A stretch of 26,388 bases of DNA from a virus. Within the stretch, counting starts at the first letter, position 1, and the number at the start of each line of letters is the position of its first letter. The notes under the pieces are model-generated. The model saw only the letters and a list, made by a program, of their open reading frames with translations, was not told the DNA's origin and did no database searches. Of the stretch, positions 14,732-21,564 are shown piece by piece. Both the position numbers and the translations under genes were made by a program. The DNA lies in IMG/VR virus record IMGVR_UViG_3300045999_009103, positions 1 to 26,388 of that record; one strand, given 5' to 3'.

Positions 14732-17700
14732 TCAGCGTCCGCTGTAAATGAGACCGCCAGGGCGGGTTTCCTTAAGGATGACGCTACGAACAGCCCCTTC
14801 GATTTCGCGCCCAAGCGCTTGTCCACCGCGTCCGCTCATCTGACTATTCGATTGACCATTGTTCATGTTGACAACAATGTTAGTAGAGATATTATTGCCA
14901 GCACCTTGGCCAAGATCCACAGGAATGCTCCTGCCGTTAGGCAATGGCACTACGGCTTCATTGAAGCGGCCTTCACCCACAAGTCCCAGTGTAGGCCCCG
15001 TGACAAGGCCGCCGTTTGCAAACGGCGTCCATCCACCTTGCATGACTCCGCCGTTGGCGGCAAACACGGTACCTGCTGACGGAGTGGTAGGCGCAGGCCC
15101 TTGAAGATTGGGGGCCATAAAGCTGAATAATTGTTTGACCGCCCAGTGAACCGCTGCCCTTAGCATTTCTTGAATAATCATATCGGCCATTTGCTTAAAT
15201 GCGCCAGCGACAGATTCGCGAAGACGCATAACTGCGTCGTTCATGGAATCAAAATCAGTGAGAACATCAGTAATCGCTGCACCCAGTGACGACCTGATTG
15301 AGTTTTCAAGATCACCGAAGCTCTGCTTAATTCGCTCGGCTTTTTCTGCATATTGCTCAAGGGCATCAACACCCTCAGCAAAAGAACGGTCATACCCTTC
15401 TTGCATCAAGCCGGTAATTCTTTCCTGCCCAAATGGAGCTTGAGCAATCCCAATTCTGTCCTGAATCTCTCCTAACAATTGCTGTCTTTTCAGGATGTCT
15501 TCATTCTTGTAGTACTCTTCGCGCCTTCTCCTGTAGGAGTCAATCAACTTCTCGACAGCTTTTCTTTCAGAGTCTGTTAAGTCTTTGGTTAATTCTTGGA
15601 CATCTAGAGCAGCTTTTTGATCATTAGTTAAATCTTTTATGCCTTCACTCAGGTTCTGACTAAGCATGTTTTGCTTAGTGATTTCTGCATTAACGCCACT
15701 GATAGCGTTTTCTAAGGGTTTTTGTAGTTGAAGCTGCGTTTTCAGTGTTTCAACGCCATAGCGTTTGTTAATGTTGTCAAGCTCAATTAATTTTTCTTTT
15801 TCCAAATCTGCAATCTTGAGCGCTTTGTCGCCTGCAGACATTTTCTCATTGTTTATCTCAACTCGGGCAACACGTAGAGCTTCTTCTACTGTGAGAATAT
15901 CGTACGTTTTGTTGATCAACGCCTCCAAATTTTTCGCTTCTGTTTCGCTAATTTCTTTACGCAGCAGCCTATCCTCAACCGCCAGCATTTCGCGCTCTTT
16001 CTCAACCTGATAGAGCTTACTAGCGTCAGCAATATATTGCTTAAGCTTTTCTTCTTTTTTATCTTTGTCTCCTGCGGCTTCAGGAATTGGCGCAAGCACC
16101 GCAGGCTTTTGCGCTTCTGCTTCCTGAAACTTAATCTGCCTCTGGCGATAATCTGCTTCCGCGGCCAATCCTTGCAAGCGAAGACGCTGTGCCTCTAATT
16201 GCGAAGCTTCTATAAACCTTCTTCCTGTCAAGTCCGTGCGAATTGGCACTCCAGATTCCTCAAGGCGTTTCGCCATGTCACCAGCCACGCCAACAACCTC
16301 TTGGCCGCCAAGGCGGCCACGATTTTGCGTCTTCTGGAGTGTCTCTATGTCCTTGATACTCCTTTGAACCCGGAACTGTTCCGTTCTTGCCTCTGTTTGC
16401 GACATAGCACGAATCGCTTGGGCTGCACCGGCCGCCTTATCGCGAACGTCTTGCATTCGTTGCGCCAAGCTAGAGAACCGCTCAATCAGCAGGCCAAGCC
16501 CAACGAGAACGATGCCAATGCCAGTCGTGGCGAACGCTCCACGAATAACGGCAGATGTAGCGGCGGCAGTCTGCCCTGTTGCCGCCATCATCGCCCTAAA
16601 AGCAGTCAATGTACTGGTGCCAGTCAGTATTCTTGCGTTGAATACAATAAATTGCACTGCTGTGCTCGCTAGTGCTCCTTTGAAGATGGCAAACGCAAGA
16701 TTAAGCGGCACAATAACTGCATACACCCTTGCAAGATATCCAACAAATGGATTACCAGCAATTTGAAGCAGCACTTTCGCCACCTCAAGCCCAACTCCTG
16801 CCATTTGCAGGAATTGCTTTGCAAGATCGCCAACATTTTTAGACAAACCTTCAAATGCTGGGCGCAGTTTTTCTAGCTCCTGTGCAATTCCGAACCCGCC
16901 AGATGTCTTGGCTGCTGCACCAGTAAAGAATGCATTAAGGCCGTCTGCCAGTGTTTTTATGCCATTAGAAACAGGCGAAACCACTGCATTCAGAAATCCA
17001 ATTGCAACCGGCTCAAATGTCTCATACAGAAGCTTCATGGAGTTCTGCATGCGGTTCATTGCACCTTGGAAGGTACGCGCTGCGCCTTCTGCTCCAGGAC
17101 CAAATTCCTGGTTCATGATTACGCCCACATTAGTGAGCAATACCTTCATAGCCTCGCCTTTATAGGCTCCATCTTCGAGGGCCTTAGAAAACTCGCTAAT
17201 AGCATTTGGCCCCTTGAATCCTGCCGCTTCCGTAAAGATGGCCATAGCGCCTGGCAGCACGTCGCCAAGCTGTCCTTTCAATTCTTCGGACATCACCTGT
17301 CCTTTGCTCGCCATTTGAGCAAAGGCATAATTCACGCGATCCACCTTATCGGCGCTCATGCCGAAGGTCGCAGCAGCTTTGCTGATGCCAGTAAAAAGAT
17401 TACGAATTTCTTCACCGCTAAAACCAGCGGGCTGCATTGAGGCATAAAGCTTTGTAAAGCCATCACGAGCAGATTGCAGAGGTACGTTGTACTTCTCTAC
17501 AAGGTCAAGAATGAGCTGGTTGGAATCTCGAAACTCCTCGGATGACGGAGTGATTGCAGTAAGAGTATTTCGGAAGTTCTGTAACGCAGATACTGCTTCT
17601 GTTACCTGCCCCGGAAGACCGGTGATTAACGCCAGTGCTTTATAGGCAGCTCCAAACAGCAAAACTTGCTTGGCAGCAAAGCTAAACTCTTCCCCCATTT

Positions 17701-19864
17701 CTCGAATGAGCCCTTGACCGGGAAGATTGGGAAGTGGGCCGCCAAAATTTATACGAGGGAATCCGCCACCGCCGCCACCGGCTCCACCGCCGCCACCAGC
17801 ACCACCGCCAGGCCCATTAGGTCCAAACATGCTGCTTTGAGCAGTAATAAGGCCAAGTGGGGACGATGGATAACCGGCCATGGGGAACTGTCCCATGGAT
17901 CCACGAGGGGATGATGGTCCCATCATTCCTTCCATCGGGAATGCATAGTTACCAATAGCCCCTCCTCTGCCGGCATAAGGAGCGCCTAACAGCATTCTTC
18001 CGCCAATAGCATTTTGACCGATTGCGTACTTGCGGAAACCGGCTTCGTTAGCGGTGATACCCTCAGGAGTCATCATCCCACCAGTAGGGAATCGAAAATA
18101 ATCCTGAGTGCCATAGCTTTGGGCTACGCCGCCACGTCCAATAAATTGACCGCCAAAAAGCCCTCCTTCGGCAGCCATTCGTGTTGCATATTTGCGCTCA
18201 TCAACACCCTCAGGGAGAGGATCTTCTCCTGCGACAAAATTGACAAATCTTTTCAAGCGCTGAGTGAAGCCCGTTAAAGCAATCCTTGCTTGCCCAGAAG
18301 CTTTGGCAACTTCTTGCATGGGAACAAAAGATCCGGCACCAGCTCCGATTCCACCGGTCATCATTGGAGACATCGGGAATTGAGAGCCACGAGGCGTCAT
18401 GCCATAGCGACCGGTAGTTCCAGCAGCAAGGCTTCCAAACGCACCGGGATCGATAAAACCAGTTCCATAGGCAGGCGGCATGCCTGCCGGATAATTCGCG
18501 AAACCAGGAGAGATGGCGCTACGACCAATGTATCCTGAGGCCAAAATCCCTGGATTAACAGCTCCTCCACCAGCAAGACGTTGGTTGACGCCCGCGGCTG
18601 GACTCAGATTGCCACGTGCGGATGCAAGCGCCGCAACAATATTGGCGATTCTTTGAGGCCTATTTCTTTCCCTAGCCTTCGCCCGTTCTCGTTCAATTAA
18701 ACCGGAAATGGATCCACCTGCACCACGCGGCGTGCCTCCCATGGGAATCACGCCACTCATCATCCCGAGCATGTAGGCGGCCAAGCCTCCTGTTTGAGCC
18801 TGACGCTCAGCCTGCACCTGCGCTCGTTGCTGGCGAATCATGGGACCAATGGATCCGCCTGCACCGCGCGGAGAACCCCCCATGGGCAACACTCCGCCCA
18901 TCATGCCCATCATCAAGGCAGACAGGCCTCCTGCTTGCGCTTGACGCTCAGCTTGTACTTGCGCCCGCTGTTGACGGATCATGGGACCAATTGATCCGCC
19001 AGCCCCGCGTTGACGCATGCCAGGTAGCTGGACAACCCCGCTCATGGCACCAGCCATGATTGCCTGCAATACCGCAGAACCAGCCTTTGCTTCCTGTTGT
19101 AGCCGCTTAAATAATTTCTCTATTTCTCGAACGCCAACATCACCTGCTTCGCCAAAACCAATTTTGAAACCCTGCTCAAGGCCCTCTCCAGAATCCTCGC
19201 CAATTTTCTTAAATTCTTTCGATGGAGATGCAATGCCAAGGACATCCTTGACGGTGCGAAGCGTTTCTTCGGCTAATTTTGCAGCAGCCTTGCTTACCTT
19301 GGACGATCCGTCCTTTAATCCATTAGCAAGGCCATTAACGGCTTCTTCTCCACTATCGCTAAACGCTGGTATTAGAGCCGCCTTTAATTCATCGTTTGTT
19401 ACTTTTCTGAGGTCGTCCGCGACCTTCCCGACTGCCATCCCAGCAGCTTTGAAGGTTTTATAAACTCCCTGCAATTGCCCTCTATTTAAGCTTTCTACTG
19501 CTTGAGCGCCAGCAATCCGCCCGGTTACCGCACGCGAAGCGGTGCCGCCAAAGCCAACGGGAGGCTTGCCCTGTTCTGTATATTTAATTTTGATTTCAAT
19601 GGGGGCAGCAACTGCTCGGCGAAAAGTTACAAGGCTACGATTTAACTGCCCTAAATTTTCGCGCGCTCCAACGATTTGACCATCGTTAACATTAATCCGC
19701 AGCTCTTTCGTGAGTCCAGTCAGTTGACGCTGGAAATCACGTTTATCGATGCTAAGCTTTACCTGTCCAGTAAATTCTGACGCGGCAATCTGACTCAGCT
19801 TGCCAAGCTGTTGGCGGAAATATACAAGATCAAACGATACGCCAAGCCGGAGTTCCGCCGCCAT
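14732..19864 (-). CDS. H: Tape measure protein (1710 aa)
   Basis: This is by far the longest gene, downstream of a frameshifting chaperone pair, the standard place for the tape measure. Residues about 735-985 match the tape measure N-terminal domain type (TIGR02675-like): 'LQNFRNTLTAITPSSEEFRD', 'SARDGFTKLYASMQPAGFSG', 'GMSADKVDRVNYAFAQMASK', 'ELKGQLGDVLPGAM' and 'RTFQGAMNRMQNS'. Hydrophobic segments lie at about 1038-1082 and 1106-1128. Long helical regions follow to about 1530. The C-terminus has 'GGWTPFANGGLVTGPTLGLVGEG' (seen in two parts), typical of tape measure ends. Residues 286-404 hold tandem 47-residue repeats, and about 430-710 are rich in Gly, Met and Pro, ending in a poly-Gly run. 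At about 1.5 angstrom per residue the tail would be roughly 250 nm. No strong Shine-Dalgarno sequence precedes ATG 19864. Confidence 0.97.
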   Translation of the reverse strand: MAAELRLGVSFDLVYFRQQLGKLSQIAASEFTGQVKLSIDKRDFQRQLTGLTKELRINVNDGQIVGARENLGQLNRSLVTFRRAVAAPIEIKIKYTEQGKPPVGFGGTASRAVTGRIAGAQAVESLNRGQLQGVYKTFKAAGMAVGKVADDLRKVTNDELKAALIPAFSDSGEEAVNGLANGLKDGSSKVSKAAAKLAEETLRTVKDVLGIASPSKEFKKIGEDSGEGLEQGFKIGFGEAGDVGVREIEKLFKRLQQEAKAGSAVLQAIMAGAMSGVVQLPGMRQRGAGGSIGPMIRQQRAQVQAERQAQAGGLSALMMGMMGGVLPMGGSPRGAGGSIGPMIRQQRAQVQAERQAQTGGLAAYMLGMMSGVIPMGGTPRGAGGSISGLIERERAKARERNRPQRIANIVAALASARGNLSPAAGVNQRLAGGGAVNPGILASGYIGRSAISPGFANYPAGMPPAYGTGFIDPGAFGSLAAGTTGRYGMTPRGSQFPMSPMMTGGIGAGAGSFVPMQEVAKASGQARIALTGFTQRLKRFVNFVAGEDPLPEGVDERKYATRMAAEGGLFGGQFIGRGGVAQSYGTQDYFRFPTGGMMTPEGITANEAGFRKYAIGQNAIGGRMLLGAPYAGRGGAIGNYAFPMEGMMGPSSPRGSMGQFPMAGYPSSPLGLITAQSSMFGPNGPGGGAGGGGGAGGGGGGFPRINFGGPLPNLPGQGLIREMGEEFSFAAKQVLLFGAAYKALALITGLPGQVTEAVSALQNFRNTLTAITPSSEEFRDSNQLILDLVEKYNVPLQSARDGFTKLYASMQPAGFSGEEIRNLFTGISKAAATFGMSADKVDRVNYAFAQMASKGQVMSEELKGQLGDVLPGAMAIFTEAAGFKGPNAISEFSKALEDGAYKGEAMKVLLTNVGVIMNQEFGPGAEGAARTFQGAMNRMQNSMKLLYETFEPVAIGFLNAVVSPVSNGIKTLADGLNAFFTGAAAKTSGGFGIAQELEKLRPAFEGLSKNVGDLAKQFLQMAGVGLEVAKVLLQIAGNPFVGYLARVYAVIVPLNLAFAIFKGALASTAVQFIVFNARILTGTSTLTAFRAMMAATGQTAAATSAVIRGAFATTGIGIVLVGLGLLIERFSSLAQRMQDVRDKAAGAAQAIRAMSQTEARTEQFRVQRSIKDIETLQKTQNRGRLGGQEVVGVAGDMAKRLEESGVPIRTDLTGRRFIEASQLEAQRLRLQGLAAEADYRQRQIKFQEAEAQKPAVLAPIPEAAGDKDKKEEKLKQYIADASKLYQVEKEREMLAVEDRLLRKEISETEAKNLEALINKTYDILTVEEALRVARVEINNEKMSAGDKALKIADLEKEKLIELDNINKRYGVETLKTQLQLQKPLENAISGVNAEITKQNMLSQNLSEGIKDLTNDQKAALDVQELTKDLTDSERKAVEKLIDSYRRRREEYYKNEDILKRQQLLGEIQDRIGIAQAPFGQERITGLMQEGYDRSFAEGVDALEQYAEKAERIKQSFGDLENSIRSSLGAAITDVLTDFDSMNDAVMRLRESVAGAFKQMADMIIQEMLRAAVHWAVKQLFSFMAPNLQGPAPTTPSAGTVFAANGGVMQGGWTPFANGGLVTGPTLGLVGEGRFNEAVVPLPNGRSIPVDLGQGAGNNISTNIVVNMNNGQSNSQMSGRGGQALGREIEGAVRSVILKETRPGGLIYSGR
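17301..17325 (-). repeat. Perfect 9-bp inverted repeat inside the tape measure gene
   Basis: CCTTTGCTC (17301-17309) and GAGCAAAGG (17317-17325) flank a 7-nt loop, over the codons for AFAQMASKG in the conserved tape measure domain. No T-run follows. Confidence 0.85.
18653..19009 (-). repeat. Tandem 47-residue (141-nt) repeats in the tape measure gene
   Basis: Unit 1 is 18869-19009 (residues 286-332), unit 2 is 18728-18868 (333-379), and a shorter third unit starts at 18727 (from 380). Units 1 and 2 begin with RGAGGSIGPMIRQQRAQVQA and end with a Met/Gly-rich segment (MMGGVLPMGGSP, MMSGVIPMGGTP). The third unit keeps RGAGGSI and then becomes Arg/Glu-rich. Residues about 270-285 before unit 1 resemble the end of a further unit. 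The DNA copies differ at many third codon positions, so the duplication is not recent or is under protein-level selection. Confidence 0.93.
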
Positions 19865-19916
19865 TACTATGCTTACAGCATTCTTCTATTAAGTGTAGCC
19901 TTTACAGGGCATCATA

Positions 19917-20384
19917 TTACTCGTCGCTGCGCATTGAAGAGTTCTTAAGCTCTTCTGCCAGCATCGATACCACCCTGGCATCCATTTTTCGTGTTTTCAT
20001 TAAACGTTTCAACACGGCGGCGCTTTCTTCTGTGATACCAGTTTCTTTCTTGAGTTTTCTGGTGTCAAATGGCAGGAAGTCATCGGCAGTTAAAGACACC
20101 TTTTTGCCGCCCAATGCATGGGCGACCATCGTGGCCATTTTTGCCACCGACAAGCTATGCAAATTGTACTGCGTGTGATCATGCTGCTCTAAAAACTTTA
20201 GAGCAGCAAGCACATCCTTCACCTTTTGCTTGGAAAAATTCTCAGGCCCCCATCGATCATCCTTAAGGCATGATGCATTAAGCCTGAAGAAAATAGCGTT
20301 CCAATTGGTTAGGCTCTTCAGAAATGCACGCGCCTTCTTCTCTACTCGTTCGGCGAGGCTTCCTGCCTCGCCTTCTTCTTCGAT
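19917..20384 (-). CDS. T: Tail assembly chaperone, T-like extension reached by -1 frameshift
   Basis: This frame is open without a stop from the slippery site at 20384 to the TAA at 19917, giving 155 residues. The first 54 codons (20384-20223) have no ATG, so most of this segment can only be translated by shifting from the upstream gene; the product would be a G-T fusion of about 323 residues. The new part begins IEEEGEAGSLAERVEKKARA, then FLKSLTNWNAIFFRLNASCL, and ends with a helical C-terminus (LKRLMKTRKMDARVVSMLAE). A GTG at 20222 could start a short 101-residue form, but it lacks a good ribosome site. In lambda, the equivalent gpG-T chaperone binds the tape measure and recruits tube subunits. 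The tape measure gene starts 52 nt downstream. Confidence 0.85.
   Translation of the reverse strand: MEEEGEAGSLAERVEKKARAFLKSLTNWNAIFFRLNASCLKDDRWGPENFSKQKVKDVLAALKFLEQHDHTQYNLHSLSVAKMATMVAHALGGKKVSLTADDFLPFDTRKLKKETGITEESAAVLKRLMKTRKMDARVVSMLAEELKNSSMRSDE
20182..20208 (-). repeat. Perfect 12-bp inverted repeat in the T-frame
   Basis: TGCTGCTCTAAA (20182-20193) and TTTAGAGCAGCA (20197-20208) flank a 3-nt loop. It lies 14 nt downstream of the GTG at 20222 and about 175 nt past the slippery site. It is too far to act as the standard frameshift stimulator and has no terminator T-run. Confidence 0.92.
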
Positions 20385-20887
20385 TTTTTTGCTTGTGCTG
20401 CTTTCACCTCCGCATCTTGTTCTTCGGCGATAAATTCCAGCATCCTACTTTGCATCTCGCGAGTCATAGTCTTAGTGTCGTCAACGGACCAGTCGTCAAG
20501 ACGCTTCCAATCCTCGCCAATTTTGCCTTCGCCACGACAGCGCATAAAGGCAGTAATCAGCTTGGCATTGCCAAGCTCTGCAGAGCCACCAGAGGTGACC
20601 ATGGAGAGGGTTTCTTCTGTGTACTCAGAAAGAAGTTCGGCTTCTGAAAATCCGCCACCACCCTGCAGCATTTCAAAAGCTTCATCCAAAGGGATAGCCT
20701 TTGCGGCAGCAATCTTCTTGGCAAGCTGCACTGCCTTGATCGTGCTCTGACTTTGAGCTTTGGAGATTTCCTCTTGCTCAATGCTTTCAGCAACTAACCA
20801 GCCACCATGACGCTGTAGGCGCAGGGTCGGAGTGAGTTCAAAGTAGCTGGTCTCTTCGGAGGCCAGCAGAAAGCTGTACTTGCTCAT
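20342..20887 (-). CDS. G: Tail assembly chaperone, G-like (0-frame product)
   Basis: The 0-frame product is 181 residues, in the slot just before the tape measure gene where lambda gpG lies. It starts 'MSKYSFLLASEETSYFELTP', has helical middle segments (IKAVQLAKKIAAAKAIPLDE, then ELGNAKLITAFMRC) and ends in a Lys-rich tail (QAKKSKKKARQEASPNE). The Lys codons near the end contain the slippery heptamer A AAA AAA (20384-20390), after 168 codons. Most ribosomes would make G; some would shift to give G-T. The ATG at 20887 has no strong Shine-Dalgarno sequence and lies inside the end of the previous gene (50-nt overlap), suggesting coupling. Sequence similarity to known G proteins is not obvious by eye; the call rests on position, size and the frameshift cassette. 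Confidence 0.87.
   Translation of the reverse strand: MSKYSFLLASEETSYFELTPTLRLQRHGGWLVAESIEQEEISKAQSQSTIKAVQLAKKIAAAKAIPLDEAFEMLQGGGGFSEAELLSEYTEETLSMVTSGGSAELGNAKLITAFMRCRGEGKIGEDWKRLDDWSVDDTKTMTREMQSRMLEFIAEEQDAEVKAAQAKKSKKKARQEASPNE
20352..20390 (-). promoter_or_regulatory. -1 programmed ribosomal frameshift signal
   Basis: On the minus strand the 0-frame reads GCA AAA AAA TCG, so A AAA AAA (20390-20384) is a perfect X XXY YYZ slippery heptamer. After an 11-nt spacer comes a perfect 8-bp GC-rich hairpin: GGCGAGGC (20372-20365), loop AGGAA, GCCTCGCC (20359-20352). The -1 frame from this site is open for 155 codons. Site, spacer, structure and downstream open frame together match the tail chaperone frameshift of long-tailed phages. 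The spacer is a little longer than the usual 5-9 nt. Confidence 0.9.
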
Positions 20888-21122
20888 AATTCAGAATGGC
20901 CAACGGCACATTAAACGCCTTGAGACGCTCGCCTTTGATACGCACGTCTTCTGGCAGTTCAATCAAAAACGAATGTTGCTCGTTTGAGATTCTAATAGTC
21001 GTTTCCGAGAAAGAAATAACACACAAGATGCCGGCTTCTAACGTTGGGCCATCGACCTTGGCGTTAATTACATGGACCTCGCCAGAGTCGCTTTCTAGGT
21101 AGTCAATGGGACCATCAACCAT
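20838..21122 (-). CDS. Small protein between gp10-like and chaperone genes, function unknown
   Basis: This encodes 94 residues. Its ATG (21122) overlaps the stop codon region of the gp10-like gene by 8 nt, and its 3' end overlaps the chaperone gene start by 50 nt. Predicted strands dominate (EVHVINAKVDGPTLEAGILC, then TTIRISNEQHSFLIELPEDV), ending with a basic tail (SAGLRRDQLL). No membrane segment or catalytic motif is visible. No Shine-Dalgarno sequence is seen, so translation is probably coupled to the upstream gene. It could be a small neck or tail-tube accessory protein. The overlap at both ends makes it less certain than its neighbours, but leaving it out would open a 227-nt gap in an otherwise gapless block. 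Confidence 0.65.
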   Translation of the reverse strand: MVDGPIDYLESDSGEVHVINAKVDGPTLEAGILCVISFSETTIRISNEQHSFLIELPEDVRIKGERLKAFNVPLAILNYEQVQLSAGLRRDQLL

Positions 21123-21564
21123 TCAGGCTTTGATCGATGCGAGTCATTAGTCTATCCTTGATTTCGCTTTGATCAAACAAATATTCCGAAGCCAGTTGAT
21201 CGGTCCAGCGTCTTGGCTCCCTGGAATAAGGACCTTGCCCCTCGTGTACAAACCAAGCATATTCTTCGCCGCTGGAGTTTTTAGCGTTCCAATGCCAATT
21301 TGCTTGTCCCTTGTTCGCATCACTTGAATACTCATAGGACTCAACCCCGCTGTCATATAGTTTTTCTGTATCCAAAATATTCCGAGGGTCGCCAACTACT
21401 TCGCCGTTTTTTCGGAGAGTAGGAGGGCCCTCATACGGATATTGCTCTTCAAATTTTTCTCGCCAATATTGCCCATTCACATCTTCCTCTGTCCACACTT
21501 GAAAAGCATCGAGCAAAGCTTTTTCCAAGTCCTTGGTGCCAGTAATTCTTGCAATCCCAGCCAT
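21115..21564 (-). CDS. Tail completion/neck protein, HK97 gp10-like
   Basis: The 149 residues fit the HK97 gp10-like family of head-tail joining proteins. The recognisable part is 'NILDTEKLYDSGVESYEYSS', then 'NWHWNAKNSSGEEYAWFVHE', 'GQGPYSREPRRW' and a C-terminal helix ending in SLNG. The family pattern is a central D-G-L/YDS, a strand, then the Y-hydrophobic-HE-G motif with 'P-R-W'. In HK97-like phages it sits between the head-closure and tail-terminator proteins. GAGGAAAG lies 5 nt before ATG 21564, one of the better ribosome sites here. The gene follows the tail-terminator-like gene by 9 nt and overlaps the next by 8 nt. Its place after the tail tube gene is unusual. Confidence 0.82.
   Translation of the reverse strand: MAGIARITGTKDLEKALLDAFQVWTEEDVNGQYWREKFEEQYPYEGPPTLRKNGEVVGDPRNILDTEKLYDSGVESYEYSSDANKGQANWHWNAKNSSGEEYAWFVHEGQGPYSREPRRWTDQLASEYLFDQSEIKDRLMTRIDQSLNG

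Follow-up and report, generated by a model that had tools for sequence, protein, structure and literature searches.

The window analysed here (the whole 26,388-base virus record) is a siphophage fragment related to the Synechococcus phage S-CBS4. Its genes follow the order capsid, small tail genes, G, T and tape measure, and then proteins of the lambda M-, L- and K-types. Right before the tape measure gene lie two overlapping open reading frames, the second in the −1 frame, a layout common to 80 relatives (Table 1). G begins at the same ATG, with an MSKYSFLL-type N-terminus, in the relatives. No Shine-Dalgarno (SD) sequence is seen upstream of this start in the window (20887–20910, minus strand), and the start codon lies within the end of a preceding 94-aa ORF (20838–21122), with a 50-nt overlap; the two observations together suggest that G may be translationally coupled to this ORF. 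The tape measure protein contains three similar repeats starting with RGAGGSI at residues 286, 333 and 380 (spacing 47; region ~286–400), the first two being nearly identical.

Table 1. Coordinates of the features at the tail chaperone locus of the window
Feature	Position	Strand	Description
G, 0-frame putative tail assembly chaperone, 181 aa	20342..20887	−	ATG 20887, stop TAG 20344–20342; open frame
T, −1-frame extension, 155 codons past the slip	19917..20384	−	ends at TAA 19919–19917; open frame
Slippery heptamer A AAA AAA	20384..20390	−	0-frame codons GCA AAA AAA, in phase
Predicted G-T fusion, 323 residues, via −1 slip at the heptamer	19917..20887	−	conceptual translation; predicted junction ...AAQAKKIEEE...
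SD-like GGAGGTG	20405..20411	−	14 nt upstream of the heptamer; anti-SD duplex, conservation
33-nt block (SD-like element, linker and heptamer)	20380..20412	−	near-invariant among 17 sequences
8-bp stem-loop GGCGAGGC-AGGAA-GCCTCGCC	20352..20372	−	perfect stem, 5-nt loop, 11 nt downstream of the heptamer
Tail tape measure protein gene	14732..19864	−	phrog_2335, E 4.7e-69; directly downstream of T

At the candidate slip site, the 0 frame reads GCA AAA AAA TCG, with the first A of the heptamer at codon position 3, which fits the X XXY YYZ pattern, and the spacer that separates the heptamer from the stem is TCGAAGAAGAA (11 nt, 20383–20373). The −1 frame is open from 20444, just past a TAG at 20447–20445, down to the stop codon of T, and its first ATG and first GTG/TTG are found at 20138 and 20222, respectively; from the measured −1-frame stop frequency, the chance of an open −1 frame of 155 codons is ~2e-5. 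An earlier note on this DNA had described the heptamer in the right phase, the 11-nt spacer, the perfect 8-bp hairpin, the 155 open −1 codons, a 181-residue G and a G-T protein of approximately 323 residues, and all of these elements and numbers proved correct on the minus strand. Note that the heptamer provides only weak evidence by itself, since genes of the window contain two further in-phase A AAA AAN sites. However, the −1 frames of these two sites are shut after 8 and 19 codons, on which ground a heptamer arising by chance was rejected; the control A AAA AAC at 21412, for which the −1 frame is shut after 19 codons, is not kept in relatives. What lifts the site above chance is the 155-codon open frame together with the conservation seen in over 130 related loci.

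This conservation was followed in two sets of relatives. These relatives are not mutually independent, and the counts below should therefore not be read as probabilities. In the first search (80 viral contigs with G relatives, G identity down to 54%), an in-phase A AAA AAR was found in 80/80 relatives, a few of which carry A AAA AAG, with the −1 frame open through the site. For the wider family, which was collected by a T protein profile search (best 80 of 296 matches, 55 loci analysed), a slippery heptamer is in phase in 54 loci, namely A AAA AAA (47), G GGA AAA (5), A AAA AAG (1) and A AAA AAC (1), the remaining locus being cut off at its end. In these loci, the slip site therefore changes only between known slippery heptamers. 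Codon usage at the site can be read against that of the rest of the gene: among 62 distinct sequences, the two Lys codons are AAA AAA in 55 and AAA AAG in 7, and the AAA share of Lys codons elsewhere in G is 39%. In addition, the length of the fusion remains between 320 and 326 residues in every relative with a complete T. The earlier note had regarded the A-only heptamer as specific to this sequence, which is wrong given that the heptamer is family-wide; it had also named, as an observation that would refute the cassette, homologues in which the heptamer is missing and the two genes each retain a start of their own, and none was found among the more than 130 loci.

Two variations on the site were also observed. 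In one sublineage (L222, L234 and L239), a G GGA AAA located ~70 nt before the G stop replaces A AAA AAA and G has a longer tail, so that the heptamer differs both in sequence and in how far it lies from the stop, with T intact. In four other relatives (L037 and L069–L071), two in-phase heptamers overlap, a G GGA AAA that continues into A AAA AAA.

Upstream of the heptamer, the earlier note had missed the SD-like GGAGGTG; its description of a complete cassette holds for the elements that it listed and is short of this one. The duplex of GGAGGTG with the anti-SD (−13.8 kcal/mol) is the strongest anywhere in G, and 17 close relatives show no variation in the element. A further 32 distinct relatives have an upstream AGGAGG with its end exactly 10 nt from the heptamer. 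In the gap-free alignment of the 17 close relatives (971 aligned columns), the 33-nt block shows a single variable column, and it consists of two 16-nt invariant runs that are the longest of the whole alignment; its third positions are variable in 1/10 cases vs 127/147 elsewhere in G (P about 1e-7). Synonymous resampling gave the SD-like element moderate support, with P 0.03 in the window and 0.17–0.44 in some lineages, and the absence of support in several lineages is partly due to the Glu-rich sequence that the region encodes. It was reported that SD-like elements lying 6–17 nt before the motif stimulate −1 frameshifting (PMC4066793), a range into which GGAGGTG falls with its 14 nt. The presence of such an element in a nearly invariant block thus makes the site dnaX-like.

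The downstream hairpin presents a more contrasted picture. In the window, the 40 nt that follow the heptamer (+1..+40) have a minimum free energy of −17.5, a value as low being reached in 0/500 shuffles, and no fold of the gene is more stable than the hairpin. It is strong in the window and in its close relatives, and two of the aligned sequences (L019 and L020) retain the full 8 pairs, two of these pairs via compensatory change. In contrast, stem pairs are broken in 7/12 aligned sequences, and the +1..+40 segments of S-CBS4, in which the hairpin is weak or degenerate, and of three other relatives (L008, L022 and L056) fold no better than shuffles. Other lineages show a different 5-bp hairpin near the site, or none. 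An intrinsic terminator was rejected as an explanation for the hairpin, as no U-run follows the stem. The earlier note had proposed an alignment of homologues to follow both elements, and here the heptamer is conserved and the stem is not conserved family-wide; its view of the hairpin as specific to this sequence is right insofar as the hairpin is lineage-restricted, but must be extended to the close relatives.

The hairpin is thus rated as a putative, lineage-specific stimulator. A serious competing reading, to which we give somewhat less than an even chance, is that frameshifting depends on the heptamer and the SD-like element, with the hairpin having little or no role, or a role in one sublineage only; this reading is compatible with the main explanation. 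It draws on the broken pairs and unremarkable folds mentioned above and on the 11-nt spacer, which places the stem farther than the usual 5–8 nt between heptamer and structure (PMC4066793), whereas the perfect 8-bp stem of the window, for which no shuffle is as stable, the compensatory changes and the different hairpins near the site in other lineages argue for a contribution of the structure. We also put forward, tentatively, that a slippery heptamer is kept fixed and the stimulators have been swapped among lineages, with an SD-like element at 7, 10 or 14 nt and an 8-bp hairpin, a 5-bp hairpin or none. If true, cyanobacterial phages would adjust the G:G-T ratio through the exchange of stimulators and not of the slip site, and the family would offer a natural series of such exchanges.

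The homopolymeric nature of the site raises another explanation, in which the fusion is made by RNA polymerase, gaining or losing an A on the A run, and not by ribosome slippage. Indeed, the heptamer is a homopolymer of A (A7), and transcriptional slippage on poly-A is known, as for a run of 11 A (PMC4256274). However, published sites are usually homopolymers of at least 8 nt (PMC3711429), whereas the runs observed here are of 6–8 nt, with 7 in 52/62 sequences and 6 (A AAA AAG) in 7/62. Moreover, distant relatives carry G GGA AAA or A AAA AAC with no longer A run and with the X XXY YYZ phase kept, and the SD-like element and the hairpin make sense only for ribosomes. Run lengths and non-homopolymer slippery replacements both argue against transcriptional slippage, which we consider very unlikely, and slippage by the ribosome is the reading retained below.

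The manner in which T is expressed can be followed through the phase of substitutions among the 17 close relatives. Within G, the variable columns fall at position 3 of the 0 frame (127/147) and much less at position 2 (21/148), and past the G stop they fall at 0-frame position 2, i.e., position 3 of the −1 frame (132/141). Between the heptamer and the G stop, a stretch of only 39 nt, 9/13 columns are already variable at 0-frame position 2, vs the 21/148 observed upstream. The coding phase of substitutions consequently switches at the heptamer, ahead of the 0-frame stop, which suggests that T is translated as part of a fusion, with no start of its own; the −1 frame would be translated from the heptamer onward, a pattern that an internal T start cannot explain. 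That T is instead a separate gene initiated by reinitiation or coupling at GTG 20222, ATG 20138 or another internal codon, with the heptamer incidental, has a negligible probability in our view, and was rejected on the phase of selection: such internal start codons are present and the S-CBS4 record lists gp032 and gp033 as distinct hypothetical proteins, but selection on the −1 frame is already seen over the 39 nt that lead to the G stop and upstream of every possible start codon, no T start-codon position is common to the relatives and none has an SD in the window, and the first ATG of several relatives lies 344 nt past the G stop.

Regarding protein identities, T is conserved at 47–96% in the relatives and appears distantly related to lambda gpT, according to weak but consistent matches. 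Indeed, phrog_337, which matches the lambda T ORF with an E-value of 1e-8, weakly matches 13/21 T members (best E 6e-4), and Pfam PF06223 (Phage_tail_T) weakly matches 8/21 (best E 0.0046), these E-values being given per single protein. Direct profile comparison (hhalign) with the single lambda T sequence gave no match, nor did that of G with the single lambda G sequence. For G, searches by profile, PDB sequence and fold returned no known family. AlphaFold models of both proteins were of low confidence (pLDDT 62 for G and 58 for T), and Foldseek searches with these models did not yield a usable match to any named chaperone; note that the absence of a fold match for G is uninformative with so poor a model. 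The name of tail assembly chaperone that we propose for G is drawn from its position, the frameshift and T.

Altogether, we are confident that the locus encodes a programmed −1 frameshift of the lambda G/G-T type, in the tail chaperone pair of a lambda-like siphophage that probably infects marine cyanobacteria of the genus Synechococcus. The junction of G and T by a −1 frameshift upstream of the tape measure gene, as the earlier note had it, is strongly supported by in-phase conservation and by the phase switch. One relative was found in a bacterial genome collection, on a 12,725-base contig (L164) that carries G, is binned in a Rhodobiaceae MAG and equals in length the viral contig IMGVR_UViG_2786546945_000008; it is probably this same contig, of stray phage origin, and gives no clue to the host.

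In the mechanism that we propose from the sequence comparisons, most ribosomes would terminate at 20342 after translating G (181 aa). Others, a minority, would be paused by the contact between the upstream SD-like element and the anti-SD and, in the lineage of the window, probably by the downstream hairpin too. The paused ribosomes would then slip back by one nucleotide, with two Lys-tRNAs on A AAA AAA (tandem slippage), and read the −1 frame to produce the 323-residue G-T as a minority product. By analogy with lambda, the G part may coat the tape measure protein, the T part may recruit the tail tube protein, and the G:G-T ratio may set correct tail assembly. In lambda, the binding partner of both G and G-T is the tape measure protein, that of T is the tube protein, and the G:G-T ratio is near 30:1 (PMC5009743). 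Frameshifting of 6–7% was measured for phage tail chaperone cassettes tested elsewhere and of 10% for an unrelated A AAA AAA cassette (PMC3711429).

These results correct the annotation of the tail chaperones in the S-CBS4 group and in related environmental viruses, and they provide a large alignment of natural sequences, through which evolution can separate the slip site, the SD-like element and the hairpin from one another. The general picture of phage tail assembly remains unchanged, as G/G-T frameshifting is widely conserved (PMC5009743). No description of the frameshift in S-CBS4-type cyanophages was found in the literature searched, which was mostly that of non-subscription journals.

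The closest known systems include the gp032/gp033 pair of S-CBS4 (HQ698895), the only cultured relative found, which shares 79% nucleotide identity over the cassette and has an identical heptamer and SD-like element, but in which the 8-bp hairpin is degenerate. In its record, gp032 and gp033 are both shortened and the G-T fusion is unannotated (L001:6113-7083; record about 19779-20749): the annotated start of gp032 is internal, 69 nt past the conserved ATG, and gp033 spans only the C-terminal half of T. The same heptamer at the same gene position was predicted earlier for tail assembly frameshifting (AAAAAAA) in Paenibacillus larvae siphophages (PMC6256562), likewise a prediction, and for an unrelated host. 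With E. coli dnaX (A AAA AAG), in which frameshifting yields a shorter product (PMC5009743), the site shares the layout of an SD-like element 10–14 nt upstream, an A-rich heptamer and, in the window and its close relatives, a stem-loop, and many of the relatives have AGGAGG exactly 10 nt upstream; it differs by the gene concerned and by a stem-loop that is 11 nt away and lineage-specific. Lambda G/G-T (G GGA AAG) differs in turn, since G here has no detectable sequence relation to gpG and the site is an A AAA AAA flanked by an SD-like element and a hairpin. Nevertheless, both systems place a short G and a −1 fusion near the G end in the same order before the tape measure gene, the T domain distantly and weakly matches gpT, and some of the relatives use G GGA AAA, which is close to the G GGA AAG of lambda.
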